64,000 bases of DNA, taken from assembly GCA_034620365.1 (NCBI GenBank), contig JAQGEQ010000071.1, positions 3,844,001-3,908,000 on the forward strand. The letters run 5' to 3'. Position numbers and translations under genes: made by a program. Positions within the stretch are counted from its first letter, which is position 1; every line of letters begins with the position of its first letter. This document shows positions 14,301-47,700 of this stretch, one piece after another. The notes under the pieces are model-generated. The model was not told where the DNA came from, did no database searches, and saw only the letters and a program-made list of their open reading frames with translations. This stretch comes from Pegea sp. RAD2-039. Lineage: Eukaryota > Chordata > Thaliacea > Salpida > Salpidae.

Positions 14301-14470
14301 CGCTTTTTTTCATTTCAGCAACAATCAAACAACAAACCAAAAATTCCTCAAAAATACGAAACTGGGCTTCACGTGGTGTCCACGTCATCAACCACAACCT
14401 TCCACAGCAGTGACGTCATCAACTACTTTTAACAACATGAAACAACAACAATCTGATGATGACGTCATCA

Positions 14471-15442
14471 CTAAGTAGCTTCACAATCACGAACTCTCAT
14501 CACCAAAATATGACGTTGCAAATGATCTTCAATAGTCTTCTTCTTGATGACGTCAAAATACCGCTGTTGTGTGACGTAATCGACCCAGGAGTGGACCCCA
14601 CCTCCGACCCCGAAATAAAAGGACTTAGAGGCCACTATTACCACCCCGGTCTTCTTCACCAGTTTTTTCATCACTTCGTGCAACTTGGGGTAATTGCTGA
14701 CTTCGTAGATAGTTTCCGCGGTCAGTATGACGTCATAACGTTCCTTAGCAACGGCAGCGATGTTAGACCAATCACCAGCAAAAAAGCGGAAGTCATAACG
14801 TTCCTTAGCAACGGCAGCGATGTTAGACCAATCACCAGCAAAGAAGCGGAAGTTAGTGACGTGATCGATACGGGACAGATGGTCACCGAATTGAGAACCA
14901 TCAGATGAAGTGGGCAGGGACTGAAGTAGGGCAGATGGGCCGGTCACTTTTAATAAAACTGACTCATTATAGTCCTGGAAATGAACCGATTCTGCCCCGT
15001 ATTGGTGGGCCAGAAGTCCAGGTAGTCCAAACCCACAACCAAGTTCTATCACTTGCTTGCCTCTGACGTCATCAGGACATATATACGCCATCAGATCGAG
15101 AGCTCCTTCCCAGATCTTCATCCCACCTTCGTACACTCCACTAATCAAATCGCTATTTCGCGCTTTCGCGTCACTAAACTCCGCGATTAATTTCTCGGCC
15201 GGATTGAGAAGCTGAACAAATCTGATTGGCTGCTGCTGTGATGACGTCATCACTTCTTCGATCGAGAACACCTCATCTTCTTTCCATCCACTCACGATAT
15301 CGCTGACCGTCACTTCGCGAAACGGTCGCGTAATCGTCGTCTTCTCCTCTATTCTGGCTTTTTTCGCTTTTGGAGCCTCATCCAAGGCGGCTGTGACGTC
15401 ATCATCGTTGTCAGCGGGAAAAAAATTAAATTTAAAACTCAT
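14471..15442 (-). CDS. METTL18: METTL18, protein-histidine N-methyltransferase (single exon, with a 20-residue internal duplication)
   Basis: METTL18 methylates histidine 245 of ribosomal protein uL3, using S-adenosylmethionine, in nucleus and nucleolus (family knowledge). The start MSFKFNF matches the family N-terminus (human MTFQFNF), so I prefer the ATG at 15442 over the longer open frame. Visible: DLISGVYEGGMKIWE, the SAM-binding motif VIELGCGFGLPGL, FQDYN, then VILTAETIY and the family signature FGVGGGVH. The oddity is at 14732-14851: a 60-bp unit is repeated in tandem, so FRFFAGDWSNIAAVAKERYD appears twice. The copies differ by one synonymous base, and other METTL18 proteins have one copy. 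It lies 115 bp downstream of NOM1 on the same strand, with a TTTTTTTCAG acceptor 28 nt before the ATG (15470-15443), so it may be the second cistron of an operon. No introns. Confidence 0.93.
   Translation of the reverse strand: MSFKFNFFPADNDDDVTAALDEAPKAKKARIEEKTTITRPFREVTVSDIVSGWKEDEVFSIEEVMTSSQQQPIRFVQLLNPAEKLIAEFSDAKARNSDLISGVYEGGMKIWEGALDLMAYICPDDVRGKQVIELGCGFGLPGLLAHQYGAESVHFQDYNESVLLKVTGPSALLQSLPTSSDGSQFGDHLSRIDHVTNFRFFAGDWSNIAAVAKERYDFRFFAGDWSNIAAVAKERYDVILTAETIYEVSNYPKLHEVMKKLVKKTGVVIVASKSFYFGVGGGVHSWVDYVTQQRYFDVIKKKTIEDHLQRHILVMRVRDCEAT
14732..14851. repeat. 60-bp tandem duplication inside METTL18
   Basis: Units 14732-14791 and 14792-14851 are identical except for one base (AAAAAAGCGG versus AAAGAAGCGG), which is synonymous for Phe. 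The unit encodes the strand-loop region that precedes YDVILTAETIY. Confidence 0.97.
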
Positions 15443-15557
15443 TTTAAGGAAAAAACAAACAAAATGAAATCTGAAAAAAATTTGGCAACAGTGAGATGAA
15501 AACAAGGGCGAGGGAAGGAACGCGCGCGTAATCACTCAAGCGGAACACGATAATAAA
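15443..15557 (-). promoter_or_regulatory. Short NOM1-METTL18 intercistronic region with splice-acceptor sequence
   Basis: Only 115 bp separate the NOM1 stop from the METTL18 ATG on the minus strand. No AATAAA is seen in the sense orientation. A long pyrimidine tract ending TTTTTTTCAG (AG at 15472-15471) lies 28 nt before the METTL18 ATG. This is what a trans-splice acceptor in an operon looks like. A separate compact promoter cannot be excluded. Confidence 0.5.
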
Positions 15558-18151
15558 TCAAGAAGCGAGCGCATCGTTCATAGCTTCAAAGTGTTCAGCG
15601 AGATGTCTTTGTGACGTCATAAAGTTGGAATCTTTGATCATGAAATGAAGGAGGAAGAGACGAAGACCTAGACGGACATGTTTTTGGTGTTTGCTCCTCT
15701 TTTCGAACACTGACGTCATCTTTTCGATGGATGAAGAGGATTGAGCAAGAAGGATGAAGATTTGTCGAAGAAATTCAATGATTGGAGGACTGATTTCAGT
15801 GAATTTGATGCTCTGTAAGATGAAGAGTTGATGAAGATTAGTTAAAAGATTGCTTAAGATCACCTTGAAACAATTGATAGTAAGAGCGGAGTTAAGAAGA
15901 AGATCTGAGATCAATTTAGAGAGATTTGTCTTCTTGCGTTCAGACATAGAATCGATGAGCTTGAAACGATCCCAAAAAGAGCACTGGAAGAGGACCACAT
16001 AGTCCCTAAAAGAAGAGTTGAAAGTAGATGATGAATTATTGATGTAACAAGTTGTTTGTGAAGTTTTCTCGAAAACTTTTCTCTTTCTTACCTGTTACTT
16101 TTACAAAATTTGTGGATGAGGAAGACATAAAACTTGTTGAAGTGTCTTTGTTGGATGCAGCATTCCACAAGGACACTCCCAATCTCTCTCAGTTGTTTGC
16201 CCTTCAAAGAAATTTGTAATTTAGAAGAAATTTGAAAAATATTCTTTGAAAAAATTCAATTAAATTGAAGAAATTTTTTAACCTTTAAATCTAATCTACA
16301 AATGTTATTAAAAGCTTCTTCAAAATCTGTAGATCCCATCACAGCATAAAAGATCTTCTTTCTGATGTCAGTATTCATCCTCATCTTCTTTGCAGCATCT
16401 TGTAGCTTCTGACTGACTTCTCCACTGACTTCTTCTACTATAAAAACCAGTTGACACCTCAAATGAACCATCTACGAACCAACTTACCACCAGTAACTTC
16501 AGTGATGTCATCACTTTGACGTCCTTTCCATGCACTACCAACCAACCACCATCGACCAGTCTCATCCGCTTCTAACAACTCCTAAAAGCGATTATGACAT
16601 CACAACTTGATGATAAACAAATAGGCCACTAGGTGACGCTAACCTTCAACTTGACGTCAGCAAACTCCTCGATATCTGACGTCATACAGCTCTTCACTTT
16701 TTTACGTCTCTTATTGATCACATCCACGTCATAGTCTACCAACAGTAGTGACGTCATCAAAAATCAGTGACGTCATCAACTCACCTTGGATCTTCTGGAT
16801 GTTGTTGTTCTTCACTGCACTGATCACATCAAGCATAAATCGCATCCGACTTCCAACAGGAGCATCGCGCGACTGTGACGTCACCAAGGCAACGATCTTC
16901 TTCATTTGCATAGGGTCGTCGCGACGAAGTTGAAATCCGATCTTTTTAAAGATCAGTAAGAGCAGCTCAACTTCTTTTTCCTGCATCACTTCCTTCTCGC
17001 TGATCAGCAGTTCTATGACGTCATAGATAATCTGCTTCTGCACCGCTTTCAGTTCGTAGAGAGAGCAGAGGGCACGTAGCAGGTTGTTAGCGTTCTTTCC
17101 ACCCACCGCGTTTGGTTGCCTAGCAACAGAGAGTGTGTGCATAAACCGCTTACAAGTACGCTCCACAAAACTAGCTAGCAACCCGGTACCAGTATGTGAC
17201 GTCATAATGACGATTAACATCACCGCTTCAGGAGATCAGTCGCTCCGGAAGTGGGTCACGAACATCCACTTCTTCCAGGATCAAAGAAATGATGACGTCA
17301 TGAACGCGCGCTCTACCTCGTGATTCACCGAGTTTACGAAGAATTGGGATAATAGATGCGATGTTGTCTTCACTTAAGCGATTCAGTTGACCTTTAACTT
17401 GACGACGGATGTTGGCGACGCTTTCTTCTTCACCATGCGTCATCAACGCTCTTTTCGATGGTGGGATGTATTTGCCTCCCGTTCCGGTTGACTGCTTCGA
17501 GGATTGAATTTTAAGATCATCATCTTTTATCAAATATTCATCTGAAATTTTATCTTCAAATTTCTTTTCTAAATCTTTGTTTTCTTCTTCATCTTCCATT
17601 TCATGATCTTCATCTTCTATTTCATGATCTTCTTCATCTTCTATTTCATGATCTCCTTCATCTTCCATTTCATGATCTTCTTCATCTTTCATTTCATGAT
17701 CTTCATCCTCATCTGATTCTTCTTCAAGCAAATTCTTAAGATCGCCTAGATCTTCATCATCTTCAGAATCATCAACCAAAAGATCTCCCTCCTCTTCTTC
17801 ATCTACTTCTTTACAATTACTTGCTCCAGACTCAATAAGATCTAAAATAGAGTCAAGATCATCTCCACAAGACCTCATCCTCTTCCCTTTCTTAATCTTT
17901 AAATTCTTCTCCATCTTAGCAATGATTGCATCATCTTCATCAGCAGTTGTAGGAGTTCTCATCTGATTCAGTTGATTCATTTTTCTTCTTTTTCTTTTTG
18001 CAGCTCCACTTAATTGCCTTTTAGGCTTCTTGTCCTTATCTACTGGAATCTCTTTAACTTTCACTTCTTCATTAAACTTCACTTTCTTAATCTGCTTTTC
18101 TTGATTTGAACAATTTTTTCTCTTTTTGTTTGATTGGTTAATTTTATTCAT
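15558..18151 (-). CDS. NOM1: NOM1, nucleolar MIF4G domain protein, six exons with one +1 frameshift
   Basis: NOM1 (yeast Sgd1-like) acts in the nucleolus in 18S rRNA/40S biogenesis and recruits DDX48 and PP1 (family knowledge). Minus-strand exons: 18151-16785, 16735-16644, 16581-16488, 16437-16283, 16201-16092 and 16005-15558; introns are 49-86 bp. Exon 1 encodes a Lys-rich and Asp/Glu-rich tail containing a DHEMEDEE-type repeat (about 17575-17715). It continues through YIPPSKRAL into the MIF4G domain (ELLLLIFKKIGFQLRRDDP, RMRFMLDVISA). Later exons carry ADETGRWWLVGSAWKG and the MA3 domain (RMNTDIRKKIFYAVM, FWDRF). The frame breaks once, near 17231: LPERLIS ends at TCC TGA and the alignment continues in the +1 frame with EAVMLIVIM. 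An acceptor (TTTTTCTAG) lies 34 nt before the ATG. METTL18 follows 115 bp downstream. Confidence 0.93.
17228..17240 (-). other. +1 frameshift site TCC TGA within NOM1
   Basis: The conserved MIF4G alignment crosses from one frame to the +1 frame exactly at TCC TGA, with no gap relative to human NOM1 (LPERLIS-EAVML against MPSRLMM-EHVLL). TCC TGA is the sequence of the metazoan antizyme +1 frameshift site. The simpler alternative is one extra C in the assembly (CC for C). Confidence 0.45.
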
Positions 18152-18185
18152 CTTAAATAATTTCTTATAAAATTTGTTTAGATAT

Positions 18186-21100
18186 CTAGAAAAAGAATTT
18201 ATGAAATAAGAATAAGATATTTTGTTTACTAGCTTCAGTTAAAATTTATTTTTTTAATGAATTTGTCAGATTAACACAAGAAGTGCTTTTAGTGTTTCCA
18301 ACAAACACAATTACTTCATTTTATAAGTTGAATCACACAAACTAGTCTAATACTTAGTGATCTATTTTAAAATTAAGTTATTAATATTTTGATGTTGAAG
18401 TGATAATTACATTTAAAATAATTATTTTTTAATGTTTATCAAATGCAACAAGAAATTTTTATCATACTTAACTTTATAAAGATATTAAAAATATTCTCAG
18501 TTTTAATTATAATTTCGTAGAACTTGTTTATAGATTTCTATGCCAAGCTACAAATCTTATTTAATTCCTATTTAATCAAATTTATCAAAATTGTTCCCAA
18601 TTTATAACCACCAAAAGATACTCAAACACTCTCGTTGGTTTCTATAGATAGATTCTCACATGACAACTAACATTAGATCTTCTGAAGACCATTTTGCACA
18701 ACATAGACAAGTATTGATGACTGGTCCTCTTATATCAGCTTAGACATAAATTTTATAGAGGTTTCACTGAGTAATTGATGATTAGAAATAAAGTCAAATC
18801 TAAAATTCAATTGAAGCTTTTTATTAAAAGAGCCAATTTGTGTATTGAAAATTTTTTAATAAATATAAATTCAGTTACACTAAAGTTGAAACTTTAGATA
18901 AGTAAAAAAATCAATAGCTTTTGTCAAAAAAAATTAGTTATAAGACAATTTTCTTAAAAATTAATCCATATCTAGGTAATGATATTAAAATAATATAAGA
19001 TGTATTTAATGTATAATATTTTTGTGTAAACACTCATGCATACATAATCTTGATAAGACATAACAATTGTGAACAACTAAACATGAAAATCTTAAAACTT
19101 TTAGTACTATATAAAGACACTTTTAAAAATCATTGATTTTAACTAAATATAAAACACCTAATCAATAAAGGAAAACAATAAAAAAATTATCAAATCTGAT
19201 AATACTTGAATAGCTAAAAAATGTAAATCAAATATTCGAGTAAAAATAAAAGAAAAATTAAAATTTTAATGAAATATAAATGAAATATAAAAAAGAGTTG
19301 CAACACTTATAACTACAGATTGTTAGAGTTAATTTTAAAGAATTAAGAATTTTACTTTAAATTTTCAATCAATAATAGAAGCTCATAGGAGTAAATTGTC
19401 TTAATCAAAAAGTTATAAATATTCAAAATATATTCTCATTTAAAAACAGGAATTTGATTTTTTAGAATCTGTTTACAGAATAAACAATAAAATTATAAAA
19501 TAAATCATAAAATGATAAAATGAAACTAAAAAAACAAACATTAACTGACTTAAATTTTTAATTTAATATAACAAAATAATTTTAAAAACAGTTTCATAAA
19601 AATAGCTCTTCTTAAATAAAAACATGACAATTTCAGTGAAAATTAAGTAAACGAAATGCAGTTAAATGTTTAATACTAAACACAACAACTAAATTATTCT
19701 GTTTCTAGCAGCAATTTATACAATTAATAATAAATTTGTAGAATTAGACGTACTGTAAGTATTTGATGTAGCAGCTTCCTACACATGTCAGCGGTGACGA
19801 GAAATTTGGACTAATCATTAGTTGGTATCTAACTAAATATTCTTTGTTTAACAAACAATAATTTTTGCTGGTACAGATAATAATTTTTAATTAAGATATT
19901 TTTATTTCTCTTTTATAACTCTTTTATAATATCAAAATTAGTTTAAAAGGTAGTTAAGCAAGATTTACACAAAATATCAACATCATTTAAACAACCTTCG
20001 ACATATAACAGAGCTTATACACTTACTAGTTTAGAATTTCTTATAAATTTTGTTATAACTTTTGTTATTTGTATCACCCCGTAAGATTCTAATAAGAAGT
20101 TTTTTACAGAAATTACTAAATAGTTTGAGTTCTTAGAATTATTATTAATTTAAGATTAAGTCTTTTGCAACTCAGTTACCACTACTTGTTGATCAAAAAA
20201 TATGTAATTATCGGTAAAATTTGAGATGATAATATACAAACACTTTGAAGCTTCATAAGCATGGTGAGGTTTTACCATTTGTACCATCATAATCAAATAT
20301 TATTAACTATGAATGGTATTTACTAAATCAAATATTTTTTGAATATTTTTCTTACAATTAAGGGCAAATTTATAATTTAAATCCTGTCTGGTTTATTCTA
20401 ATGGTAAATATCATTTAAAATCAATGATTACATTTCTGCTTAAATCACTTGACTTAAAATATTAAAGATGAAAGTTAAATGTTGCTAATCGCCACTTTTA
20501 AAAGTTTATAAATGAATCGTAAAGCTTACTAGACATACTTAATTAGATAATTTACTTTAATAAATGCGAAGGAGGGTGCCTGAAAAAAGCAACTCCCGCT
20601 AACACACATTCTCACAAATAATATCTATTAAGTTGTCATATTTTTATTAGTATCATTTATCAGCTTTATGTGAGTACAAATATAATTATCAGTACTTTTA
20701 CTTAAATTTACAACTTGAAACTTCTTCTATAATTTCTTGATAAATAATTTGCTAAACCATCTCCTTATCTCTTTGTGGCTCTTTCGTACTCAGCTGTTCT
20801 CACTCAAAGTCTTATTGATAGTTCAATTTAAGTTTTATAGTAAGAAACTCATTAGTAGAATGAAATATCACCAGTTATCTTTTTGTTAGATGTTAGATTT
20901 ATTAGTTAAGTTATAAAAAGAAAAAGTAATAAAAAACTAAACTTGCTCTTGAAATTAAAACTGTTGTTAAGTGAAAAATTAAATAAAAATCGTACATAAA
21001 AATATGAAAATATTTGTAAAAGCCATTTTCGTGTTACCAAGAGAATTTCTCTTTTATCTATACTTTAGTTTTGTAAACTTTAGGATTTTCCATTAATTTT

Positions 21101-22246: not shown

Positions 22247-25200
22247 ATGATCTGGATTCGGAAAGATCATTGAAGCTAAATCCAGCTAGTATTTTATCTT
22301 TTTACAATTCTCATGAGGTACAAACTCTTCATTTTCTTCATAATCTTGAAAATCTTTGCTCAGACACCAGTATTTTCAACTCTTATGAAACATTTCCCAG
22401 ACATCAACCCACAAACAAAGTAACTTCGAATACATAGTAAGCTGGAAGCTTTCATCTCCTAGCAACAAATTTACTTTTCAGGAAACAAGAGAAAACTCTC
22501 AATGAAGATGACGTCATCAGCTTTCATCCGCCTTTTCTTAACTTTGGTTCAAAGTCAGTACACTAACTACATGACGTCATCACCTACTAACTATGTCATG
22601 CAGATCAGTAGGGATGACGTCATCGCAGCGCGTTTACGTTTTTAATCCATCACAAAAGATCTCGCTTCATTTAAATTCGATATCAGGATCAACACAACAC
22701 ATCCACGCTTCGTTTTTTGAAAATAAAGTGATTTTACGCCCCTATTTTGTACCCTTGTTTCTATCAACTTCTTGTAGATCCTCAAACCTGGTGAGAATAC
22801 ATCTTTTGAGGCTGTGTTCTTGCCACGTCACGCAGGGAACGTCGAAAGTACGCTATTCATCGACACCTCAGAAGGTCGTTTCTCTTACCAGGTATGACCC
22901 AACTTAAAGCGGAAAAGCTTGATGTTCAGTGAAGCGGAACGAACCGTTGAAAGCGGCGCGCTGATTGGTTGATTTTGTTGCAGTTGTTTGGGGTTGGATT
23001 GGAAAGTGAATTTCGACTAAAATCGATTTTTTGTTCACATGTAAGCCTCAATAGCAGCTGCTCGCCCCTAATTACCCTTCACAATCCCACTGAACAACCG
23101 CTAAAGGTGAATCGCGCGGTAATGACGTCATTTTTGTGAATAAATTGATTAATTAGGTGAAAGAAATCTACTCATCAAGTGTGGACCTTCATTTACAGCT
23201 ACCTAATGGACAAGACAGTGCCCCAGAAAGCTCATGGGTAAGTCCCAGCTTCTTAACATCGTTGTATGACGTCACGAACGCGCGTAGGAAATTGAACCCT
23301 TCGAGACGAAAGCATTGATGCGTGCAAGCTTCATGGCGACTCATGAAATTAATCAAACTGCTTACATCAGCATCAACACGAATAAGGGCGGAAGTTTCAA
23401 GGTTCCTATGGAGATTCACGTCACTTCAAGTTCATTCGTGCCCTTGTACCCCACTTTCCCCCCTTAACTCTCTCCCCTTTACAGAACCTGCTCTCTACTT
23501 CTCCATGGAAACACTCGACTTTGGCACGATGCGAACCAACGGTTAGTAGACGCGATGATGACGTCATCACATCGATTCAAATCGAAATTATAGATGAGAC
23601 CCGAATGTTGGCAATATTTGCGCTGAATTCCGGACCACGTGACCTGGTGTTAAAAGACGTGAAAGTGGACAAGTCAAACCCAGCAGTTACTGTCCAGTTC
23701 CGGTCCATGAAACTTCCGGCCCAGGCCAATTCTTTCACCCTAATTGCAAATGTCTCCTTCACCGGTTAGTTGTGACGTCACAAGCGACAAATAGAAGCCA
23801 GAATGTTGTTTGTTGTAGCGGAACTGATGACGTCACTGGACGACTGTAAGGGGCGTGTAGTGGTCTCGATCAAAGAAGATGACCAATTGACCAATTCGCG
23901 TCCTTGCCATTTAAAGCACGAGTTCTTGAAGGGTCAGTCATCGAGCGTTACGCTTCACTGACTTCGTCATGCTTCACTGATTTCAGCACACTTGGATGGA
24001 ACGATTCGTCGACTTCTTTCACGCTTCAGTACCCGAAACGAAGTGATGACGTCACCAACGAAGACTCTTCCTACTTGATCCGAAGAAACATCGAGTTGAT
24101 CAACTCCTTCGATTTTCCGCTCCTCATCCACAAGATTCAATCAAATCACACTGATCTCAATCCTCTCTTTCAAGTCTTCATCCGATCTTCCTCCAACTCC
24201 ATTCTGATCTCTTCCTTCTGACAGGTCATCACCAGTGGCGAGTCTTTTCTACTTCCTCCTCAAAACCTCACCACTTGCTTCACTATCGCGTGTGCTGTCT
24301 CCAGCGCGCGTGACGTGATGAAGCGTGAAGGCGTGACGTCACTCACACGTCACATCCACGTGTATACAAACGCATCACTCTTCTCAATCCCAGTTGTTCT
24401 CTTCACCAACAACCTCCAGGTGCTCCTCATCTTCCAACTCCCTCTAGTGACAACAAATCGCTTTTCAGTACAAAGTAACATCCGAAGATGAATCTTTGAA
24501 GGAGGAAGAGACAAGCTCGATCCTTGACTTCAACGTCATCGCTGTTACCCAGCAACGCAGTAAACAAGTGATCCTTCAAAATATCAATCCTTCATCAGTG
24601 AGTTTTCATCATCGTGATCCAACGCGATTCACTGATGACGTCATAGGTGACCATTGAAGAGATCAGCTCGACTCTTCCCGGCATCCGGTTGCAGATGGAA
24701 GGTTTGGAGGCTTCGAGGTCGATACTACAAGTTAGTGACCTAATGGCATGTCAATGTGGTCCCTGACCTCATATGGTGACAGGTGGTGGTCGCGAGTTAC
24801 AGTGACGTCACGATTCGTGTCATTTTCGAAGCTCCTGCTCAAGAAGAGACTCTTACAGGATTTGTGATCATCAAATCGGAGTATGAAGTAAGTGCCCCTG
24901 TTCGCCCCCTTTTCTTCCTTCTCTTCATCTGCTTCCTTGTTTCAGATCATCAAGATTTTAGTGAAAGCGCAAATCGAAAGTGGATCCATGACCTTTGACC
25001 CTCAACATTTGGTTTTTCCGCCCAGTTTTCCGGTCAGTTGAATCAGGTACAAGTGGGTCGACTGACCACTACTTTTCAGGGACGGGTGGTTGGCAAGACC
25101 CTGAAGGTCCTCAGCACTTTCACTTATCCGACCAAAATTGAAAATTTCTTCTCTACTGATCCTCATTTTTATCACAGGTCAGTCTCATCTTCCTTGTCAC

Positions 25201-28200: not shown

Positions 28201-29057
28201 GAGGAAGCTCTCTCCTGCTCCTTGTAGACGCGAGAACGCTTGGAAAGGTTTGTGGATTTTGATCTTTCTGATCTTATTCTAATCTGTATCTTTAGGAAGA
28301 TCATTGTCGACGGAGGAGCAAACACCTCCAATTTTCAGCAATCTTCAGATCACTCGTGATGATCTTCATCCTGATTACAACTTCTCCGTCTTTTCTTCTC
28401 ATGGTTCGAACTCTGAATATTCATCAGAATCTTATCGGAAGACTTTTTTAGATTCCAGTAAAGTTCCTCCGGTTCCTCAGAATCCAAAAGATCGGGAAGA
28501 GATCCCGCAATGGAGTGTTTTCGGGGAGTCTTCTTTTGATTTTGTGGGAGGTTTGTATCTTCAATCCAAAGATCTTTATTTGAAAATCTTCATCTAAAGA
28601 CATACATCGAAGTCGGACGCGGCAACTTCTCGAAATCAGCCAAGATCCTCAGTTTATGAGATCATCAGCATCTCGTTGGGGTCTCAATCCAATCCAACCT
28701 CCAAGATCGATCCCAGCTCCTCCGGGATTATCAAGACCCACATCCCAATCACCTCTTTCATCTCAACAAGATCTTCAGTGGCCAACTTCCAACTTTCCAA
28801 CTCAATGGAAGTCGATCTTGACGAGAAGAGGGACCCCTGAGGAAGCTCTCCTAGAAACAAACCTGAGACGTGATGACGTCACTAAACAATCGTCTACCAC
28901 TCACGCGATCTGGTCGGTTAGCAACGCGGTTACTATGGACGAGAACAGAGAAGCAGTGACGGTGAGATATAGAGTTGGTTGAGGTTGATGTTGAATTGAA
29001 TGATTTTAGGAGGATCCGCTGGGACTTCGGAGTATTTGGGATCCGAGAGAAAGATGA
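22247..29057 (+). CDS. TMEM131: TMEM131-like transmembrane protein, more than 30 small exons, 5' exon(s) missing
   Basis: TMEM131 is a single-pass ER/Golgi protein; its lumenal Ig-like (PapD-L/ASPM-like) domains bind procollagen and its cytosolic tail binds TRAPPC8 for collagen secretion (family knowledge). The exons join with GT-AG introns and matching phases. Diagnostic blocks in order: FHPPFLNFGSK-SVGM, VYVFNPSQ, HASFFENK-ILKPGENTSFEAVFL, LFGVGLESEFRL, METLDFGTMRTN, FPPSFPG, NPSDHFLIVQIMSLSYYSEPSV, NNLTVVETVKLEGTG, GGYGFEIMNC and YSPDFTSS. Then comes VPRPTWE with a hydrophobic helix (about 27050-27116) and a basic, Ser/Pro-rich cytosolic tail (27386-28961) ending SIWDPRER. The first recognised exon is 22247-22317. 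Many introns are 46-62 bp. An 8-bp tandem duplication (23881-23896) breaks the frame in one exon, and a G-run near 25498 may hide another indel. Exon structure at 25368-25720 is uncertain. TGACGTCA occurs about 24 times. Confidence 0.9.
23881..23896. repeat. 8-bp tandem duplication breaking a TMEM131 exon
   Basis: GACCAATT is present twice in a row. Upstream codons (..KEDDQ) and downstream codons (LPFKARVLEG) are in different frames, and deleting one 8-bp copy joins them. Confidence 0.8.
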
Positions 29058-36640: not shown

Positions 36641-37072
36641 AAAACAAACAAGTCGTGACGTCAGCAAGTTAGTTGTTGACACTGGCTGAGTGGGTGGGCG
36701 GCTGGGCGGTGACTTTGACCATTTTGGACTTTGAGGGCCGCAAATTTAACAGAAAACTTCTCGTTCGATAAGTGACGTGATCAGTGAAGTGTGACAGATT
36801 CAAAGGTCTCGGTGGTCACGTGACCAGACGGTGAAATAACCAAAAGTCTTCAAACGCCGACTAATCCTCGGGAGACGGGCTTCGATTAATTGCGCTGTGC
36901 TCTTCAATTGTTGCCATGGCAACATATCACCGGTGTTGCTATAACAACGCGAGATGGTTTCCGTTTGCAACCAGATGCTTGTCTCAACTCTCTTCAAATC
37001 TTCAAACAGCTCTTTAATCTTTGCAGAGAGTTGTTAAAGTGGTAGGGAAATCCCCTGAATTGATGCTACTAG
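36641..37072 (+). promoter_or_regulatory. Probable FHDC1 upstream/promoter region
   Basis: Base composition changes abruptly from AT desert to GC-richer sequence. It contains a TGACGTCA site (36656), a G-rich GGGTGGGCGGCTGGGCGG stretch (about 36690), a perfect X-box palindrome (36910-36923) and a second X-box-like motif (36935-36948). No exon is evident. The assignment as promoter is inferred from position. Confidence 0.5.
36910..36923. promoter_or_regulatory. Perfect RFX X-box palindrome
   Basis: GTTGCCATGGCAAC, a perfect 14-bp inverted repeat matching the RFX-family X-box consensus, about 200 bp upstream of the FHDC1 ATG. A weaker copy, GTTGCTATAACAAC, follows at 36935-36948. X-boxes commonly mark ciliary genes. 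Confidence 0.6.
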
Positions 37073-37120: not shown

Positions 37121-40100
37121 ATGGAGTCATCAGATGATCAACTCTCTTCCCAGATTCCACCTCCTCCTCCATTTCTGATCCCTCCTCCACCCCCACCTCC
37201 TCCGCCAACAGCTCCTTTACTTTTCAAGTTCATAAAGAAGGAAGGACCAAAGTGAGCGTCAGCGTCAACGCGTAGTGACGACATCAACACGCCAAATTTT
37301 TCGCACAGAACTCGACGTTTCGCGTGGCAAAAAGCGGACGTGAACGCAATCAAGCGGAACGATACGATATTTAGTGAAGCGAAACGACTAGAAGATAATG
37401 AGCAGATGAAGATCAAGATCGACCGCAAAGCGATCACGGAGTTGTTTTCTGTTGAAGAGAAGTCAAAAGCGATCTCAATCAAGCAGAAGATTTTAAAGAC
37501 CAAAAAGAAGAAAGAGGAAGATGAAAAGATGGAAGTTGTGAGCGGTAAAAAAGTGAGTCTTTGAGACTTCATTTCATGAATGAATCCCTGCCCTTTATCT
37601 CCTCCCCTACTTGAAGTTTTTGTGTAAAACCACTCCACTTGTTTCAATACTAATCCGTCCATTTAACGACCTAATTTCGCTTTTTAATTTGTGATTAAAT
37701 TTCTAAGTTTTTTTTTATGAATGTCGAATGTTGAAAAATTTTTTGATTTTCATCAAACTAGTAGTTTTTGAAAATGAAAAATTCTTAGTCATCATTTGTA
37801 AGATGCAAACGACTGAATAAACAAAAAAGCTCTTCAAATCGCGACGAACTATTGACTACAATTCTAGAAAATAATAATTAATAAAAATATTATTTTAATT
37901 TAGTTTCTGAAAAGTCAACAAAAGATAAAAAATAGAAAAGTTGTTGGGGGGTAATAATAATTGTAACAAGTTGTTGAGATAACATTTTGTTTGCTTGTAA
38001 AAGTAACAACCTGAAATATCTGAAAATTAGAAACAAACTCAGCTACAATAGTCTATGAACAGTTTATTTAAACATTTACTTTTCTAACTCAAATAATTCT
38101 AATATTATTTGCTAAACTCTAATCTTTGAAAACATTTCAATTAAAAGTTTTAAGTACACAAAGTTTGTAGTTTAAACAACTCCCAGAAACAAAATTATAA
38201 ATTGTATTTTTCTAAAACTATTTCTTTCAGCAACTGTTTATTTGAATGATTATAAAGTTTGATAATACATTTTTGTGTTTTGTATACTCTTCAAATTATT
38301 ATTTTTTTTAAATGTAATTATAATTAACTAACTTTTAAATTTATAGTTTTATAATCGCCAAAAAAATTCAATGGTTTCTAAATGACTTTTATTATTTATT
38401 TTAGGCTTATTGTGAATTTATGAATATATCAAATTAATCATTTTTTGTTTATCAGCAGTCTCTTTTTTAAGCTTAAAAATTTGTTTTTGGCTCTTAGCTT
38501 ATTTAAGTAACCACAAAAATTCTTTTTCCTGTATCATACCGTGACTCCCAAAATTTCTAAAATCTTTTCTTTGAAACACTATAAACTCTTTTTGTCAGTT
38601 TATTTTATCAAACTGTCTGCCAGTTTGAATTTTCCCTCGCCTTAATAAAGTTAATCGGTTTTTACGTTTCGGTTCAGTGCATTCAGCTAAAGGTCTTCTG
38701 CCAATGCATTCGTAGAAATGTGTTCCCAGCACATGACTTCTATTTGCTTTTTAGTAGGATTAAATATCAATTAAAAATATTATGAAATTTGCAACCACTA
38801 TTGCAAGAGTTCAATGCAGCATATATCGGTTTTATATAAGATATAATATATTTCCTTGATCTTAAGAACTTGATAATTATGGATGTAAAATTTTAACGCT
38901 GTGGTAAAAGTTTAATAAATCGAAAGATCTGTTTGAAGTTTCCTGATTTTTTGAGATTTTTTATTTGAAATTGTTAATACCCTTAGATTCTACCAAAAGA
39001 AAAACATGATTTTGCCTCAAGGCTATCAAAGATATCTCAGTAAGTTTAAGACACGAGTTTAGAGAAAAGATAATTTCACTTGAAAATATATACCTGTCAA
39101 TAATTGTTTAATTTTAATTAGATTTCAATTTATAAATAAACTATATTCTGTATGACAACGGTGTTTACACAATAGCAAATAACAGTTTGTCATTCTAAAC
39201 AAATACAGTTGATAACAAACAATAAAACAAACTAAAAAAGCTGGTAGCTGCTAACAAACTGTAATTAGTAAAAGAGAAATATTTCTAGTTTAATCTCAAT
39301 TTGTAAAATAAATTCTTTGAAAGATAATATCTCTTTGTTTTCTATTTATAATTCGTTCATATAAAATAGGGCGTTTTATTTTCCATATTTTGACAAGTAA
39401 TATTATTAATTATATCAGATATAATCGTGTTTAGATGAAAATGAAAAGAAAAATGCTAAATTAGCTAAAAATAAGATTTAAATCAAAATAAGATAATCTT
39501 TTTTTTTCAGGTTGGGTTTTTGGATACACAAAGAAGCCTTAATATTAGTATTTTTCTTCGGCAACTAAATAGGTTTGTACAAAAGATTTCTAAATCCTTT
39601 TTACCATTTTTGTCTTTTTAGTTTAAATTTAAACAATTCAAAACTGTAGAAAATCATTTGAACAAGATAAACATTTATATAATCATGTATCTTATCATGC
39701 TTACATATTTAATGACAAGAAGCAACAGATTTAATTAATGAGATATGAAAGAAGTGATGACGTCATCACGTACAAATATGGTCGAATATTTTTTGGTGAA
39801 ATTTTAAAGTAAAATCGACACAAAAGTGATTTCATGAAAATAATCTTTTAGAAGAAAATTCTTTTTTAATTTTTGGGGAGAAAAACTTGAGAACAGAGTT
39901 TTTCTTCCTGCTTTGAATTTATCTAAAAGCTTTGTATTGTGTTGTAAGTTTTTAATTACAAATATTTAAAGGATTCAGCTTCTGTTTGCTTGAATTCTAA
40001 ATATTTATCTGTAAAAAAATGTGAAAAAACAAAATCTTAAATTGTTGCTCATCGATTTTATAGTAACGGTAGATCAAAGCTTCTCAACAAGTCACGTGGT

Positions 40101-43100
40101 TACTTGTTGTCACAAGCAAACCAATATTGTTAGCACAACAATACAAATGACGTCATATTTCACTATGATGACGTCATCACTGTCACGGTTTCCTGAAAAG
40201 TTTCTCTACTTCCATCCGACCCGCAGCAGTCGTAGAAAACCGAAAAAGTAACAATAACAACTTTGTCGATGACGTCACAAATGAACAAGAGCGTACGCAG
40301 CGCTTGAGTGCACACTCGACAAATGGACACGTGTGTTGATGAGTTGATGACATCATCGCTACGTCACTGCTTTGATTTACTAGAAGATCTTCATACTCAC
40401 GATTTTGCGTGTCACGTGACTGATTGTAAATTAACCAATTAGAATTAATAACGTAACTATAAGAGGTGCATCCGCATGACGTCATAGTTTTGCTTGAACT
40501 TTTGTAAATTCTTTGTTTGGATCATTGATTAGGATGCAGATCACGATCTGTAATTGATTGACTTCATCCTTTCAGTGGTAGAGGGAAAAATGGCGTTTTT
40601 ATGAATTGGTTTCACTAAATCTTTCGGTAATTTACATATTTCAAAACTTGAACACTTTGTCACTAGATAAAAACAACAATTTCAACCCGGTGTGTTAGCA
40701 ACCAATTTAAAAATCGATTTAAGTTTGTTTATAAAAGAATCTAAAACGTTGAGCTTAAAAATAATTTGTTGTCCTAAGTTATTAAACAGTTATGCTAAAT
40801 ATGTCAAGTTCCACTTTCGTCACAGTTCTGCCGTTGACAAATATTTAACCTTTTTGATAAATAGCAAAAGGGGAATAACCTAAAGCAAACAGTTCTTTAT
40901 TTTTTTCGGGTTTTTCTCACTAATTTAGGTTCAATGTTCATTTGTTCAATTAAGCGATCTGAAATTCAATTAAAAGGTTGTAAAAGTTGCCAAATCAATT
41001 TCAATAGCTTTTAGTGATTTATTCTCCACTAAAAATTGTTTCTGAGTAGGGAAAATTCCCTTAGTAGCTGCAGTAGTTGGCCCGTAACAACCTCATGAAT
41101 TCAAAATCTTCAAAAACCATTTTAACCATCGATAGTTATCTCTCGATTGTTTCGCTCGAGTGAGTTTTTTCACTAAGGACTCAATTGTTTATTATTTTCT
41201 GGAAATTAATTTTAAACCTGAATGGAAGCTTCTGTTACGATGACGTCATCGTCATTACTTTAATTCTCGCTAAATTTAAAAACTTATTTTTTTCCGTCTG
41301 ATTTTTCAATTTTATAAAATGATGTCATCAACACTTTCAGACCAAATTCATCTCTGGCCCAGATGATTACCAGCTGTGACCAGTCTGCATTCAGTGTGGA
41401 CCAATTAAAAATGTTGAAAAAATTTCTACCTAACAACGACGAACTGAAAAAACTAAAAGGTAATCAGCAACGACCAAGTTGGTTGCCATGACAACGTTTG
41501 TTACTTCACCAGGGTACAAAGGTGACCTAAACTTGGAGCCGGAAAACTTCTTGATGCAACTTATTGCGGTTCCTAACTACGCTCTTCGCGTCCATGTGAT
41601 GTTGCTAAGGGAACAGCTTCTTATTGATGTTGTTAAGGGAACAGCTTCTTATTGATCTTCCTCAGCTTCGAGAATCCATTTCACTGCTCATCACTGCGAT
41701 CCAAGGTATTTACAACGTGATGACGTCATCACGACAGCTTCTTACTTCGTGATGATGAGCAGATATATCATCTTGTTACGCTCTTCCCATCATCATGCAT
41801 CTGATCTTACAAGCAGGCAACTTTTTAAATCGCGGCGCTGCTCTTGGCAACGCAGTCGGTTTCCAACTATCGTCGTTACGCAAACTGAGTGACACTAAAG
41901 CCAACAAACCAGGGATCACTCTCATGCACTACGTTGCCATGGTAACCACTCAACAAATTGAAACTTGTCACCGATACTTTTGAAATCGACAGGAATTGAA
42001 GAACCACAGCGAGGACATGCTTTTCTGGCCCCAAAAGTTGGTTTCTGTGGACAAGGCATGTCGTGTGTCCGAGACAGAGTTGACACAAGAGTTAGGCAGT
42101 CTTCGTAAAAAACTTGCATCTTTGGGACGTTTAGTTAGCAAAGAAGGAGACAAAAAACTGAAGAAAGAAAGTGAAGAATTTTTCAAAGTAAGTTTGAAAT
42201 TAAACAAACTGAAGAATTAACAAACAAAAAAGTTGAGATTTTATGACACAATTTCTCATCAAGTTAGTTGGTTGTTGAACTTTTGTAAATAGCTGAAATT
42301 TTTCACATTTTCAATCAATCACGTGACACAGAATGAAAAACGAAATCTTCAATCAATTACTGATCATGAGGAAGAGTTGAAGAAGAGTAAACAGAAGTTG
42401 GCGAGGTATCTGTGTGAAAAACCAGAGCGCTTCGATTTAAGTGATTGTTTTCAAACAATAATTGAATTCAAAATGAAGTTTAAAAAAGCAGTTTTTGAAA
42501 ATCAAGTTCGAGAAGAAAAACAACAAAAAAAGTGCGTTTTTCAGTTTGTTTTTCAGTTTGTTTTTCTATGTATTTTTCAGTTTGTTTTTCTTAGAGATTT
42601 TCAGTTTGTTTTTCTTTGTGTTTTTAGTTTGTTTTTCTCAGCGTTTTTTGTTTTGTTATTTTTCATATTTTTCTTTTTTTTATCAGTTTGTTTTTCAGTT
42701 TATTTTTCTTCTTGTTTTTTTTTTAATCTTAACTTGTTTCTAAATTTTTTCTTCCTTTTTTTGATAATATTTTTTTTACTTTTTTAAATTTATTTTTTTA
42801 CTTTTGATATTTACTATCTTTAATGACGTCATCTCTTCTTTTAGAAAAGAGCTTCTAGCTCCGAAAACAAATCTCTTGCCCCGCTCCTCCTCCGAAGTAT
42901 GCAAACCGCGAATTTCGATGTCGTCACGATCTCGAGTCGCGCGTCGACGAACCACAAACCTCACATCAAAAGAAGAGGCTCTTGAAGATGTTCTTAGCGT
43001 GATATCGACGCAATCTCAGCCTCCAAGTATCCCAAAAGAGTCCTGGATTGAAAAAGGGCAACAGCGGCGACGGCGACGTCTCGGGTCACATCGTCCTTTG

Positions 43101-44797
43101 TCATTAGTGGATGGATTATTAGAAAAAGGGGGTGAAGCTGTCCACGTACCCTCGCCTCTTATCGCCCCAACCACCGACCCATCGCATCCACCTGAAGACG
43201 AACGACTTCACGTCCAGATGAATCGCTTCCTGAATCCTGAGCTTTTGATCCGAAGGACTCGGAACCGAAGATCTTTTGTGAGGAGACCAAAGACCGAAGA
43301 CACAAGCCTGAATCGGGATCGACCTCCTGATCTCCCTCCAGAAGCTCCAAAAGGTAAATCTCGATTATTTTTCCACTTATGACGTCATCTGTGATGTGTG
43401 TAGAAATGGTGGGAGGACCCGCGGTGAGCGGAGAGACAGAGAACACTGATGACGTCACGACACGGATGAGTCTGAATGCTGGGAGGAGGAGTCGGGCGAG
43501 AAGGAGGAAGACTTTCATGACTCCTCTAACCGATCTCATCGAAGTCCCAGTTGAAAGATCCGCTGGGAAGAAAAAAGAAGATGGACTCCTGGAGGGAGAA
43601 GATACTCCTCAAACAAAGGAAGATCGACTCCTGGAGGTAGAAGATGCTCCTCAAACAAAAGAAGATCGACTCCTAGAGGGAGAAGATACTCCTCAAACAA
43701 AGGAAGATCGACTCCTAAAGGTAGAAGATACTCCTCAAACAAAAGAAGATCGACTCCTGGATGTAGAAGATGCTCCTCAAACAAAAGATGATCGACTCCT
43801 AGATGTAGAAGATGCTCCTCAAACAAAAGATGATCGACTCCTAGAGGTAGAAGATGCTCCTCAAACAAAAGAAGATCGACTCCTAGAGGTAGAAGATGCT
43901 CCTCAAACAAAAGATCGAATCCTGGAGGTAGAGGATGCTCCTCAAACAAAAGATCGAATCCTGGAGGTAGAGGATGCTCCTCAAACGAAAGATCGACTCC
44001 TAGAGGTACAAGATGCTCCTCAAACAAAAGATCGACTCCTAGAGGTAGAAGATGCTCCTCAAACAAAAGAAGAAGTAGAAAATACTTCTTTAACGAAAGA
44101 TCACTCCCTGGAGGTAGAAGATGCTTCTTCAGTTCTGCCTGATTCAAAAAATCTGTCAGAAGATCCTTCGGACACAACCAGAAAAAATCCCTTAGAATCC
44201 AATCCTAATTCAAAATCAGATCCTCGACCGCCTTATGAAGACATCACTACAATTGACAACGGCTCAAAAGAGCAAGAAGATGAAAAGACGACACTAAGTA
44301 GTCAAAAGGAATCAAAAAAGAACACTGTGGGGAGAACAGTGGCCCAGAGAGTCACTTTGATCCGCTCCAAGACACAAATTGCCCCTAAGCATAGGATTTA
44401 TAAGATCAATTCAAAATCGCGAGCTCTTGAGGACACTGGAGACGCTAAAAAAGCTATCGAAGCACCAAAGAATCCAGCGTTAGTTCGTCACACGCGTGTG
44501 ACGTCACCACCGGTCACTTGTCGCGGCAAAACGCCGGAAGCAGTCGAAGTAAAGAAAGCCCCACTTACGAGGAGAAGACCAAGAACGGCGCCTACTCCTA
44601 AATCAGTGAGGACGACGACAAATCAAAACTCGCCACCTGATGGCAGTAAAGCGCGGATTAATAGGACAGAAACCAATAAACTTGAGACTCGATCTGCTAA
44701 AGTGCCCTCTAGTGGCGAACAATCGAACATGACGCCACGAAAAGTAGTGCAAATGAACCGCGCTGCTCGATTACGAATGGTACAGAAGACGAAGTGA
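37121..44797 (+). CDS. FHDC1: FHDC1-type formin (FH1-FH2 with long repeat-bearing tail), ten exons
   Basis: FHDC1 is a formin that lacks the GBD/FH3 regulatory half, nucleates actin and binds microtubules at Golgi and cilia (family knowledge). Exons: 37121-37251, 37309-37552, 39511-39572, 41341-41459, 41513-41705, 41763-41941, 41993-42187, 42332-42531, 42845-43353 and 43404-44797. The short FH1 is PPPPPFLIPPPPPPPPP. FH2 follows: RRFAWQKADVN, ITELFSVEEKSK, DTQRSLNISIFLRQL, KFLPNNDELKKLK, LQAGNFLNRGA, GNAVGFQLSSL and DTKANKPG. The basic C-terminal tail carries about 12 tandem 13-14-residue repeats. The start lies just before FH1, with an acceptor-like CTACTAG 48 nt upstream. A 28-bp tandem duplication (41598-41653) puts a frameshift and stop into exon 5; removing one copy restores an ungapped alignment with vertebrate FHDC1. 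Introns 2 and 3 are about 1.9 and 1.8 kb, in contrast to the roughly 50-bp introns elsewhere. Confidence 0.9.
40141..40490. promoter_or_regulatory. TGACGTCA cluster inside FHDC1 intron 3
   Basis: Four TGACGTCA copies within about 340 bp (near 40148, 40169, 40269, 40478), in a GC-richer patch of an otherwise AT-rich intron. The flanking exons join without missing residues, so this patch is not coding for FHDC1. It may be an enhancer, or another part of the iterated-palindrome phenomenon. Confidence 0.45.
41598..41653. repeat. 28-bp tandem duplication breaking FHDC1 exon 5
   Basis: Units 41598-41625 and 41626-41653 differ at one base (GTTGCTAAGG versus GTTGTTAAGG). The second copy shifts the frame and leads to TGA within the FH2 domain. 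Confidence 0.95.
42536..42720 (+). repeat. T-rich tandem repeat in FHDC1 intron 8
   Basis: Irregular tandem units of about 18-25 bp built on TCAGTTTGTTTTTCT fill much of the intron between 42532 and 42844. Open frames that run through here are read-through from exon 8. Confidence 0.85.
43573..44110 (+). repeat. Coding minisatellite in FHDC1 tail (about 12 units)
   Basis: Tandem 42-bp units, then 39-bp units, encode RLLEVEDAPQTKED-like repeats. The first seven units are 14 residues long and the later ones 13. The near-identity of neighbouring units suggests recent expansion. The complementary strand also stays open (213 residues), but this is a consequence of the repeat rather than a second gene. 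Confidence 0.95.
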
Positions 44798-47700
44798 CGT
44801 CATCATCGCCATCTCCTCCTCACACTTACACAAGTTTTTTTTTCGGTGCTTTTTTTTTTGTTTGAGACTTTGTTGACTCTTCATATCAATCGTAGTAGAT
44901 CCTCAAACTGTTTCCGACTTTCTCAGCTGATTTCAGCCGAGTATGAAATTATTCACATGATTGTGACGCAACGATTTGATGACGTCATCCATAGCAGGTT
45001 TTTTCTCCAGTTTTTTACTTGTTAAAAATAATTTGAAATTTTATTTTTTTATTTTTTTTCATATTTTATTCGAAATAAAAATTGAAACATAAAAATTGGA
45101 AGAATTTTGTTGAGATTTTATTAAATCTCAATTAGTGAGAGAATTAAATGGATTGGTAATTAGTTCTATTTATTTTTTCTTTGTTGTTTTTTTCATTCTA
45201 ATATAAAACAAATCTTAATGAGTTTATCTAAGTAAAATTTAGAGTTTTGGTAAAATGCTTTTTTTTTAGATGGACATTTTGTGTTCACATTTTTTATGAA
45301 CTTTATGACTTGCAACTAAAAAAAGAAGTTGTAAAAATTTCAAACTGAAACCTTTGATAATTCCGAAAGTAAAAGTTATGTATCAAAAAAGTTTTATTAA
45401 TTTAATACAGTAAAAATATTTCAACTTGTCTTTTTTATAATACAGAAATTGTTTTTTAACTTATAGTGTGGAGAAAAATAGGCTTAACGAATAATTTTAT
45501 AAAATCATTTATTTTCGACAAATTATTCAGAAATATGTAAATATTATTTTATGGACAAATAAATAGTTTTAAACAAATAAACAGTTTTATTCTTTGGTAA
45601 GAAACAAAAAATATTGTCAGCGAAACTATGGTTATCATTAAAAACTAGAAACACATTGAAAATTTATTGCAAAATATTTTGAAAAATTATTGGAAAGTAA
45701 ATGTAAAAATGAAATCATAAACAAGTGCTGAAGCAAATAATTATCAAAAAGAGTTGGTTAAAGTTGACTGTTTCAATTATTAACATTTTTATCATAAATA
45801 AGTTTATAGTTTGAGAATTACTTTTGTTTATCTTTTATGTTTCTTATGTCAACAATGCTACACCATATGGGTAAGTTTTTTTTTTATTTATATATTAATT
45901 CTTGATAAAATTATTTATTGGTGGATATTAGTTTTATTATTTTGTGGATAATTTGTTATTAGAACCTTTTCTTACTCTGAAAATCAATTTAGCATTTTAA
46001 AATATTACGTTGAGCATCATCATGTTCCAAACTTGCAAAAAGGTCCTCAAACCCTTTAAAAATTTAAACTTTACAGCTGTATCAATACAGAGTACTTTAA
46101 ACTGTGGCTGTGGGTGTTATTAACAAACGATTAATTCTAATCAAGCGAAGAATGTAGAAGAGACAGGTTTCAGCCAAGACGATCAAACTTTTGCAATGAC
46201 TACAGCATTTGAGAAAAAAATGTCTTGATTGATACCATAGTTTGGCATTTAAGACTAGGCCAATACAAACACAATTTGCAAGGCAACCAAACTTGTCTTA
46301 AGTTAAAAACAGCTTTTGTTATTATTGGTCGAGGGTTTTAAATTCCTGCTCGCCTTGTGTTGTTCACAGTAAACTGTAATATATCTGCATTGATGATAGT
46401 ATATATCATTGTAAAAAAACAGAATTTATCTTTCGAATACTTCTGAAATGTCACCAGTAAGATGTATAAAAATTTAGCTCACAAAAGAAATTTATTTTTG
46501 TTACTCACAAATATTTCTCATATTTCATTTTGATTTTTAAAAGCGAAAATTACCAAAAAAGGTTTTTACTTGGTATTTTTTATTATGAAACCCACAAAAA
46601 AGTAAACTGACTTAACTTGGAAAAGATTTGGAACTGTAAAATCTTATAAATTTACTCGTATTTACATTACTACAAGATGTTAGAGGATTTTTGAAAAACT
46701 TTTGTAATTTAAGATTATTTTTCTATTGTAAAAGGCGGCTAATAACAACAGTAAGTAACGACAAACAACCCAAATGTCAGCATACAGAATGAATTATCAA
46801 CAAGCGTGAATACTAGAGTTGGAATCACATTTACATGTGCGGTAAAATAACCCAATACATAGAATTACGCAAACAGTTTTTACTTTAAACTTAAGTTCTT
46901 ACCGTGGTGTTGGAGTGCTATAACTACACAAGGGAAAATGATTAGGACAAATAAACAATCTTACAACAACTATTGACTGTTTATATCAGATAAGGTGCCC
47001 AACAAAAATACAAAACCTCATATATTTATTTACTTATTCAACGCATGGCTGCAAAGAACAAATTCAACAGCTCTTATAGCGGACAAAAACTAAATATTAC
47101 GAGCAAAGAAGTAATTGGAAGGTCCTAGAAGGTATATCGTAATTTAAGATTGATACAGAAAGAATAGAATCACTGTAGAAGCATTGGTAAAGTGTAAATT
47201 ATAAATCAAAAATTTGATATGATAAAATAGAAAAAGAAGATGAAGAAACCTATCACTTGTTAAAGAAACTACTTAAATCTTTTATTTTTAGCAAAATTTT
47301 GAAAGATGCGATAGACTTTGATGTAGTCATGGAATCAGGAAGGGAACTCCAAACCTTAGTTACCCTTTTGAAAAATCTGTTACTCCACTGGGTGGTCTTA
47401 AAGTTGTTGAGCGGTTTAATTCTGATTGAAGAGCCTCTGAGGACATATAGGAGATTGCAATCTGTAAAGTAATCTTTGAAGTTAAGATATATTGAAGGTT
47501 ATAATCAATTTTGGAGCAATCTTTTCCACAATCTTAAAGTTTGTGAAAAGTTACTGATACTTTGAAGATGTAAAATTCAAAAAAATAATATGAAAAATGA
47601 ACTTTTCGGATTTTAAGAATATGAGAAGAGTCACAAAGTAGAAAAGGCGTTTTTGTATCTACAAACTAATCTGGAAAATCTTCATAAGACTACACTGATA

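Follow-up and report, generated by a model that had tools for sequence, protein, structure and literature searches.

The iterated palindrome HIP1 is, to our knowledge, confined to cyanobacteria and still without an accepted explanation. Classic CREs are promoter elements, and bZIP proteins prefer R/Y flanks around them. HIP1 was first described in 1995 (cited in PMC4390886), and in the accessible text of Elhai 2015 (PMC4390886) its one-mismatch variants are reported to be concentrated at the first and last letters. A second related system is the fission yeast M26 hotspot, the element of which, ATGACGTCAT, requires Atf1-Pcr1 according to the available text of PMC3534124; in that of PMC9775316, breaks are placed on both sides of M26 and not on the element itself, and a CRE in ade6 is described as lacking both Atf1-Pcr1 binding and hotspot activity.

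The 64,000-nucleotide stretch analysed here (the window) contains clustered copies of TGACGTCA, and the best reading of this iteration, by analogy, would be as a eukaryotic counterpart of cyanobacterial HIP1. Both are exact 8-bp palindromes present far above expectation genome-wide, and in both the function and engine lack a settled explanation. The words differ, however (GCGATCGC for HIP1, TGACGTCA here), as does the host, which here is an animal; in addition TGACGTCA has bZIP-type flanks, is strongly clustered in GC-rich islands and, in contrast to HIP1 as presented in the sections of PMC4390886 available, shows no end bias among its one-mismatch variants. A first-pass annotation of this DNA called the word massively iterated and HIP1-like, and as a description this holds for its tens of thousands of copies, its exact 8-bp palindromic form and its coding and noncoding occurrence, but not for the word itself or its one-mismatch pattern.

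Abundance of TGACGTCA in the window and genome

Exact matching identified 57 copies of TGACGTCA in the window, close to the 55 or so previously counted by eye, whereas 100 dinucleotide-preserving shuffles gave a mean of 0.49 and at most 3. Four island stretches, together 13.1 kb, hold 54 of these; because they were drawn around TGACGTCA clusters, the motif itself helped to set their borders. Markov simulation of the island stretches (100 runs per order) produced means of 0.22 (order 1), 0.76 (order 2) and 0.63 (order 3, motif-masked) and never more than 4 copies. Among the 64 palindromes of the form NNNCGNNN, the runner-up in the window was TCACGTGA, a classic bHLH-ZIP site, with 7 copies, and none of the others exceeded 3. 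In the AT-rich genome of 105.7 Mb there were 27,792 copies of TGACGTCA compared with 969 of the same word read backwards, used as a control, and TCACGTGA was also enriched (4,614 versus 237). The first-pass annotation had proposed a genome-wide count and a comparison with other CG palindromes: the count did not come out at chance level, and TGACGTCA was far ahead of the 63 other NNNCGNNN words in the window, with TCACGTGA the only one of them counted genome-wide. The excess is approximately 38- to 59-fold above dinucleotide rates. These data confirm that the iteration of TGACGTCA is real and genome-wide.

Islands and genes in the window

Island 1 (14300..17400) carries 17 copies of TGACGTCA, distributed over METTL18, a spacer and the 3' portion of a MIF4G-bearing gene that we take to be NOM1-like; all 16 positions previously listed in 14.4-17.3 kb proved right, and a copy at 16652 had been missed. 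Five of its seven 500-bp bins (14001-17500) have a GC content of 40-48% and a CpG o/e of 0.97-1.22, while the bins at 14001 and 16001 have 33% GC, the latter being without TGACGTCA. Five copies lie in the METTL18 (histidine methyltransferase) frame (14474..15442, minus strand; PDB 4rfq, E 2.8e-37). Those at 14728 and 14548 lie where the alignment to 4rfq has no gaps (YDLI in 4rfq, YDVI here), which speaks for origin by substitution; the copy at 15064 is beside a two-residue gap, and 15242 and 15394 are outside the alignment. The spacer 3' of METTL18 carries copies at 14411 and 14460. A further five are present in a NOM1-like open frame (16729..17235, minus strand) with a MIF4G domain at residues 21-145 (PF02854, E 6.5e-14), for which no PDB match was found; two of these, at 16749 and 16768, lie immediately beyond a donor-like GTGAGT, probably in an intron. 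The upstream open frame (17228..18238, minus strand), in which Pfam finds nothing and which is taken as the 5' part of the NOM1-like gene, has one copy (17293) at its 3' end, and its GC content is 0.48-0.49 below position 17500 and 0.31-0.32 above, a sharp island edge within a single frame. Across the METTL18 and NOM1-like frames TGACGTCA reads DV or TS in 11 of 11 copies, two of them probably intronic; this agreement carries no weight as evidence, since the frames had been selected for their lack of stops and the third frame contains TGA.

For TMEM131 the first-pass figure of about 24 copies proved to be 24, within 22509-28874. Half of them are in island 2a (22400..25000), over the 5' half of the gene, the Ig domains of which include PF24495 above and PF19532 below cut-off, where the copy at 23773 is probably intronic, and half in island 2b (27000..29000), over the 3' part, in which an open frame is rich in DV and TS. 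Between them the TMEM131 middle (25000..27000; PF24501 over and PF24499 under cut-off) has 39-42% GC and three copies of TCACGTGA but no TGACGTCA. Island 3 (39700..45100) surrounds a formin gene, the FHDC1 of the first-pass annotation, with an FH2 fragment at 42293-42787 (PF02181, E 0.0011, below the curated cut-off); its copies number 13, at 39758-44980, rather than about 14. Two isolated copies are at 8695 and 9028 (8695..9035), and another was found by the exact-match count at 36656..36663. The view that copies occur in exons, introns and flanks is thus borne out by reading frames (METTL18 and MIF4G), probable introns and spacer DNA, a coding and noncoding occurrence like that of HIP1; the statement that they lie on both strands is meaningless for a palindrome.

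Clustering and base composition

Twelve stretches sampled at round coordinates (L033-L044, 114 kb in all; 27% GC) contained 19 copies of TGACGTCA, and the word is evidently clustered, since 17 of the 19 fall in two stretches and eight of the 12 have none. With the motif masked, islands have 41.6% GC and a CpG o/e of 1.00 compared with 28.7% and 0.66 outside, and they span coding and noncoding DNA. GC3 is 0.50 and 0.54 in two island frames (METTL18 and MIF4G, respectively) and 0.24-0.29 in the upstream NOM1-like frame and two motif-free contrasts, a LETM1-like frame (31390..32433, plus strand; GC3 0.24; PF07766, E 6.1e-34) and an eIF5B frame (59549..62488, plus strand; GC3 0.29; GTP_EFTU, E 2.4e-36). 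Classical CpG islands have a GC content above 50% and a CpG o/e above 0.6, and the islands described here exceed the second threshold but fall short of the first. They resemble CpG islands and islands of GC-biased gene conversion in their raised GC and CpG on a kilobase scale; however, GC here reaches just ~42% and one exact word dominates, which GC bias alone would not produce. GC islands are also not required for the excess, as low-GC 500-bp windows contain 42 copies against 0.88 expected (~48-fold), and some GC-rich stretches, such as the TMEM131 middle, have none.

Near misses, flanks and spacing

Sites with one mismatch to TGACGTCA are barely raised genome-wide (37,125 versus 27,699 for the reversed word; 64,917 versus 28,668 with up to one mismatch). 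In sampled DNA one-mismatch words numbered 93 against 55.7 expected and the perfect word 133 against 1.8, the latter being over-sampled because the sample includes the window and motif-centred loci. The enrichment thus has an all-or-none shape, with one-mismatch words at just 1.3 to 2 times background. When hand-summed by letter pair, observed and expected values were 7 and 6.2 (letters 1/8), 23 and 13.5 (2/7), 12 and 6.7 (3/6) and 51 and 29.7 (4/5), indicating that variants in the sampled DNA are not concentrated at the outer letters. Near misses close to background point to a balance of mutation and fixation bias acting on the exact word, as an old decaying burst would leave many.

The flank form RTGACGTCAY accounts for 23,214 of the 27,792 genomic copies (83.5%) compared with 228 of 969 reversed controls (23.5%). 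Flanks are symmetric, and in 119 copies position +1 is T in 61% and C in 28%, +2 is C in 46% and +3 is A in 51%; from +4 outward the composition (L001 left out) is close to that 20-60 bp away, indicating that TGACGTCA is not part of a longer repeat. With these flanks TGACGTCA looks like a candidate bZIP (CRE) site of the CREB/ATF/JUN form. The genome has 12 bZIP_1 matches, and the two compared with PDB gave best matches to CREB1 and JunD, so that CREB-type and JUN-type bZIPs are encoded. The octamer is that of the CRE bound by CREB/ATF; unlike the classic CRE, however, copies are also in introns and spacers, and they are not confined to promoter-proximal DNA, being present in reading frames and 3' parts of genes in this window. 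The 242 TGACGTCA intervals, a pooled sample partly biased to clusters and judged without a formal null, are more frequent at 11-24 bp than in the following bins and then fall broadly, and a strict spacing or nucleosome period was accordingly rejected.

Possible explanations

Of the causes put forward in the first-pass annotation, biased repair or gene conversion and a protein-binding site are the best remaining and are partly supported. We tentatively propose that TGACGTCA is kept far above background by a weak DNA-level fixation bias favouring the exact bZIP octamer with R/Y flanks, perhaps via conversion or repair. Copies would originate as point substitutions in near-miss sites and then be favoured; a simple balance of mutation and bias would put the scaled bias at roughly ln(40-100), or about 4 to 4.6. 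The favouring step may be biased conversion or repair where recombination is frequent, which would raise GC too, although the excess in low-GC windows and the GC-rich TMEM131 middle without TGACGTCA count against the proposal. A bound CREB/ATF/JUN protein might make the motif-bearing strand the donor or shield it from breakage. That the reader is a bZIP and that the engine is conversion are the least secure of these steps. If conversion were the engine, this would be a sequence-specific drive that affects protein sequence and might account for GC islands.

The parallel with ade6-M26 and its CRE lies in the ATGACGT core and the decamer ATGACGTCAT, which more of the window's copies carry than any other flank form (22 of 57); hotspot activity is bZIP-dependent in fission yeast, and bZIPs are encoded here, the likeness being one of sequence. 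A break-attracting motif should be lost through conversion, so the M26 parallel needs a motif that shields or donates, properties that are purely hypothetical here. This is the hotspot paradox, as named in the available text of PMC3534124. Among the matches listed by literature searches covering few subscription journals, no M26 report described tens of thousands of iterated copies, and none announced an iterated TGACGTCA in an animal.

A close rival to fixation bias, and a real possibility although we incline away from it, is weak regulatory selection, in which dense homotypic clusters of CREs (and E-boxes) would be regulatory or chromatin-opening elements over gene bodies, each exact site being kept by weak selection. 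The bZIP-compatible flanks, the encoded CREB and JUN, the surplus of close pairs at 11-24 bp and the co-enrichment of TCACGTGA, which overlaps TGACGTCA as TGACGTCACGTGA at two places in sampled DNA, are all consistent with this, and a scaled bias of ~4 fits weak selection equally well. It sits less easily with 27,792 sites, some within conserved reading frames, or with an island edge inside an open frame, and selection on single sites does not predict raised GC3 and noncoding GC in the islands. In a eukaryote with known protein readers, biased repair or conversion and weak functional selection would become testable against each other by population and occupancy data, and such a case would caution against reading the number of CREs in a genome as a sign of regulation.

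A bolder form of the fixation-bias proposal, which we consider doubtful, is that the CRE octamer is itself a selfish unit of drive: whenever it arose by mutation in recombining DNA, a bound bZIP would bias conversion in favour of the allele carrying it, and the octamer would have spread through exons and introns, recoding proteins to accept Asp-Val and Thr-Ser. Such a system, with TCACGTGA co-enriched, would be the first HIP-like system in an animal as far as we know.

Marking of the word by a cytosine methyltransferase, followed by its copying through mismatch repair, is an unlikely cause; a model of this kind is proposed for HIP1 in the accessible text of Elhai 2015 (PMC4390886). The HIP1 link is to a methyltransferase with an inner part of the word as its recognition site. 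Here 11 genomic PF00145 matches suggest putative bacterial-type C5 methyltransferases, three of these being in ~860-aa open frames that exceed the cut-off of the bacterial dcm model, and an ACGT core is common to TGACGTCA and TCACGTGA; however, TTACGTAA, another ACGT palindrome, shows no excess (0 versus 0.4 and 3 versus 3.9), the flank preference extends three bases past the octamer and one-mismatch words do not favour the outer letters. Still less probable is a protective effect by which bound CRE and E-box sites escape methylation and retain CpG that is lost elsewhere in the genome. The islands' CpG o/e fits such protection, but CpG outside is depleted just ~1.5- to 1.6-fold, too mildly for protection as sole cause of a 38- to 59-fold excess, and among NNNCGNNN palindromes only TCACGTGA accompanies TGACGTCA above 3 copies in the window.

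Spread on a mobile or tandem repeat is very improbable. Tandem arrays with TGACGTCA do occur: L001 (C374) has units of 31 and 24 bp, the array at C3:890762-891231 has a unit of 21 bp, and a single pair of places in C8 is identical over 32 bases. Against this, the flanks of the 119 copies outside L001 approach local background from +4, and the first 100 of 367 places matching a spaced-extension pattern, spread over 21 contigs, seem by eye to be mostly unrelated once the C3 array is set aside. Island 2 (6.8 kb), searched against the genome for a haplotype copy, yielded none and matched itself and four short pieces; on these flanks, which show no longer shared sequence, and on this search, a dispersed longer repeat was rejected. 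No point was found in support of chance, composition or assembly artefact, to which we give practically no credence: they are refuted by the TGACGTCA counts, with shuffles, Markov models, reversed-word controls and presence on many contigs all opposing them.

Abundance of TGACGTCA in the window and genome

The 8-bp palindrome TGACGTCA was present in 57 copies in the window, compared with a mean of 0.49 and a maximum of 3 in 100 dinucleotide shuffles and with 0.55 copies expected under a first-order Markov model of the 64-kb sequence. The runner-up among the 64 palindromes of the form NNNCGNNN had 7 copies. Copies of TGACGTCA were located at 14.4–17.3 kb (17), in the TMEM131 region (24), in the formin region (13) and in the remainder of the window (3), and all 16 positions listed by the first-pass annotation at 14.4–17.3 kb were correct. 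Gene models in the window are partial. Next to the formin domain, an open frame contains tandem repeats of 39 to 42 bp (43489–44128) that code for an acidic VEDAPQTKEDRLL-type repeat, and LINE reverse transcriptase-like fragments, judged by eye, were observed at 4251–4538 and 7232–7522.

The genome-wide excess that the first-pass annotation had proposed to look for is present, with 27,792 copies across 105.7 Mb (387 contigs) versus 969 for the reversed word, a conservative control since it contains no CG and the genome is CpG-poor. The excess is approximately 59-fold at the dinucleotide rate of the low-GC samples and 38-fold if GC-rich DNA is assumed to make up 15% of the genome. Words with no more than one mismatch numbered 64,917 (control 28,668) and one-mismatch words alone 37,125 (control 27,699), the latter about twice the low-GC dinucleotide expectation; the exact word carries most of the excess. 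Density is uneven over megabases: on contig C1, which contains the window at 3844001–3908000, it takes 1.56 Mb to reach the first 100 copies, about one quarter of mean density, and density in the window is more than three times the genome mean. Among the matches listed, C1 has dense clusters close to 3.20 Mb and at 6.00–6.11 Mb as well as in the window.

A second word, TCACGTGA, is likewise enriched genome-wide (4,614 versus 237 for its control), and overlaps TGACGTCA as TGACGTCACGTGA at two places in the sampled DNA. A spaced-extension pattern matched 258 times in forward and 109 times in reverse orientation, against 7 and 4 for its control, although one 21-bp tandem array on contig C3 inflates the forward count; the 100 places listed in contig order fall on 21 contigs, as far as C27. 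The 21-bp array at C3:890762-891231 carries TGACGTCACTG in most units.

GC content and copies within reading frames

Motif-masked island stretches of the window had a GC content of 41.6% and a CpG o/e of 1.00, compared with 28.7% and 0.66 outside, although the islands were delimited by eye around the clusters, which ties their borders to the motif. METTL18 and the MIF4G frame of the NOM1-like gene, with 5 copies each, had GC3 values of 0.50 and 0.54, versus 0.29, 0.24 and 0.27 in copy-free measured stretches of eIF5B, a LETM1-like gene and the upstream NOM1-like frame, respectively. This upstream frame has a single TGACGTCA, at its extreme end; its GC changes from 0.48–0.49 below 17,500 to 0.31–0.32 above, and GC3 is 0.43 in the last 47 codons and 0.23–0.28 in the others. 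The MIF4G-bearing gene is one that we take to be NOM1-like, and in our reading the two NOM1-like frames are parts of one gene. They overlap at 17228–17235 in different phases, too tightly for an intron. High GC and the word do not always coincide: no TGACGTCA occurs in the GC-rich middle part of TMEM131, and low-GC 500-bp windows of the samples, which include the window, loci picked by motif (L001–L031) and a random set of only 114 kb, contained 42 copies versus 0.88 expected (approximately 48-fold), with 91 versus 0.93 in GC-rich windows.

Translated in its two stop-free phases TGACGTCA reads x-Asp-Val-x or (Met/Val/Leu)-Thr-Ser, and because stop-free frames allow only these Asp-Val and Thr-Ser readings, frame usage of the copies is no evidence in itself. 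The METTL18 and NOM1-like frames contain 11 copies, including those at 16749 and 16768, which directly follow donor-like GTGAGT and are probably intronic, and those at 17016 and 16876 within the MIF4G match. In an alignment of METTL18 with the human protein (4rfq), gap-free segments contained two copies, those at 14728 and 14548 (YDLI in human, YDVI in the window), that at 15064 adjoined a two-residue gap, and those at 15242 and 15394 lay beyond the alignment; this single distant comparison, which yields no rates, speaks for substitution rather than insertion. METTL18 also contains a 60-bp direct duplication (14729–14848, 97%) with the frame kept and the palindrome in the first copy only.

Flanking sequence and candidate binding proteins

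The form RTGACGTCAY accounts for 23,214 of the 27,792 copies (83.5%), versus 228 of 969 (23.5%) for the reversed control. In the mean symmetric flanks of 119 copies from sampled DNA outside locus L001, position +1 was T in 61% and C in 28%, position +2 was C in 46% and position +3 was A in 51%; positions +4 and beyond were near the composition of DNA 20–60 bp away. This pattern fits the preference of CREB/ATF/JUN bZIP dimers. The bZIP_1 profile has 12 matches in the genome, of which five were read and two compared with PDB, giving CREB1 (43 aa, E 2.2e-18) and JunD (63 aa, E 4.8e-19) as closest relatives. Neither TTGACGTCAA nor CTGACGTCAG was seen in the sampled DNA. L001, on contig C374, contains tandem arrays at approximately 1311–1572 and 2245–2690 with units of about 31 bp and 24 bp, most bearing TGACGTCA or a close variant of it; both ACGT-core words are brought together in the 24-bp units, which contain TCACGTGG or CCACGTGG in addition.

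Possible origins of the excess

The first-pass annotation likened TGACGTCA to cyanobacterial HIP1, and the likeness holds for its character as an iterated palindrome, but not for the word itself, which differs, nor for its near misses, which are not end-biased. It has the CRE sequence, yet is spread beyond promoters. Among the literature matches listed there was no report of like iteration of this word in any animal.

TGACGTCA occurs at approximately 40–100 times expectation while near misses stay near background, the pattern that a steady fixation bias on the exact word would give; in the simplest balance the scaled bias would be ln(40–100), or about 4 to 4.6. The counts expected from weak selection are the same as those from biased conversion. 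We lean towards an engine that acts on the DNA, since GC is raised in the islands at third codon positions as well as in noncoding sequence. In fission yeast the decamer ATGACGTCAT serves as the M26 hotspot element (PMC3534124), and breaks at M26 flank the site instead of falling on it (PMC9775316). Against such a reading, conversion is expected to eliminate a motif that is hot; TGACGTCA would, we infer, have to act as shield or donor. A methyltransferase route, of the kind put forward for HIP sites (PMC4390886), is a possible alternative, and is consistent with three candidate C5 cytosine methyltransferase open frames of approximately 860 aa each that exceed the bacterial dcm cut-off (matches at C57:819734-821068, C57:825004-826338 and C249:1740710-1742044). 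Two of these frames are inverted relative to each other, about 4 kb apart, and four weaker C5 methyltransferase matches are located on contigs C32 and C52.
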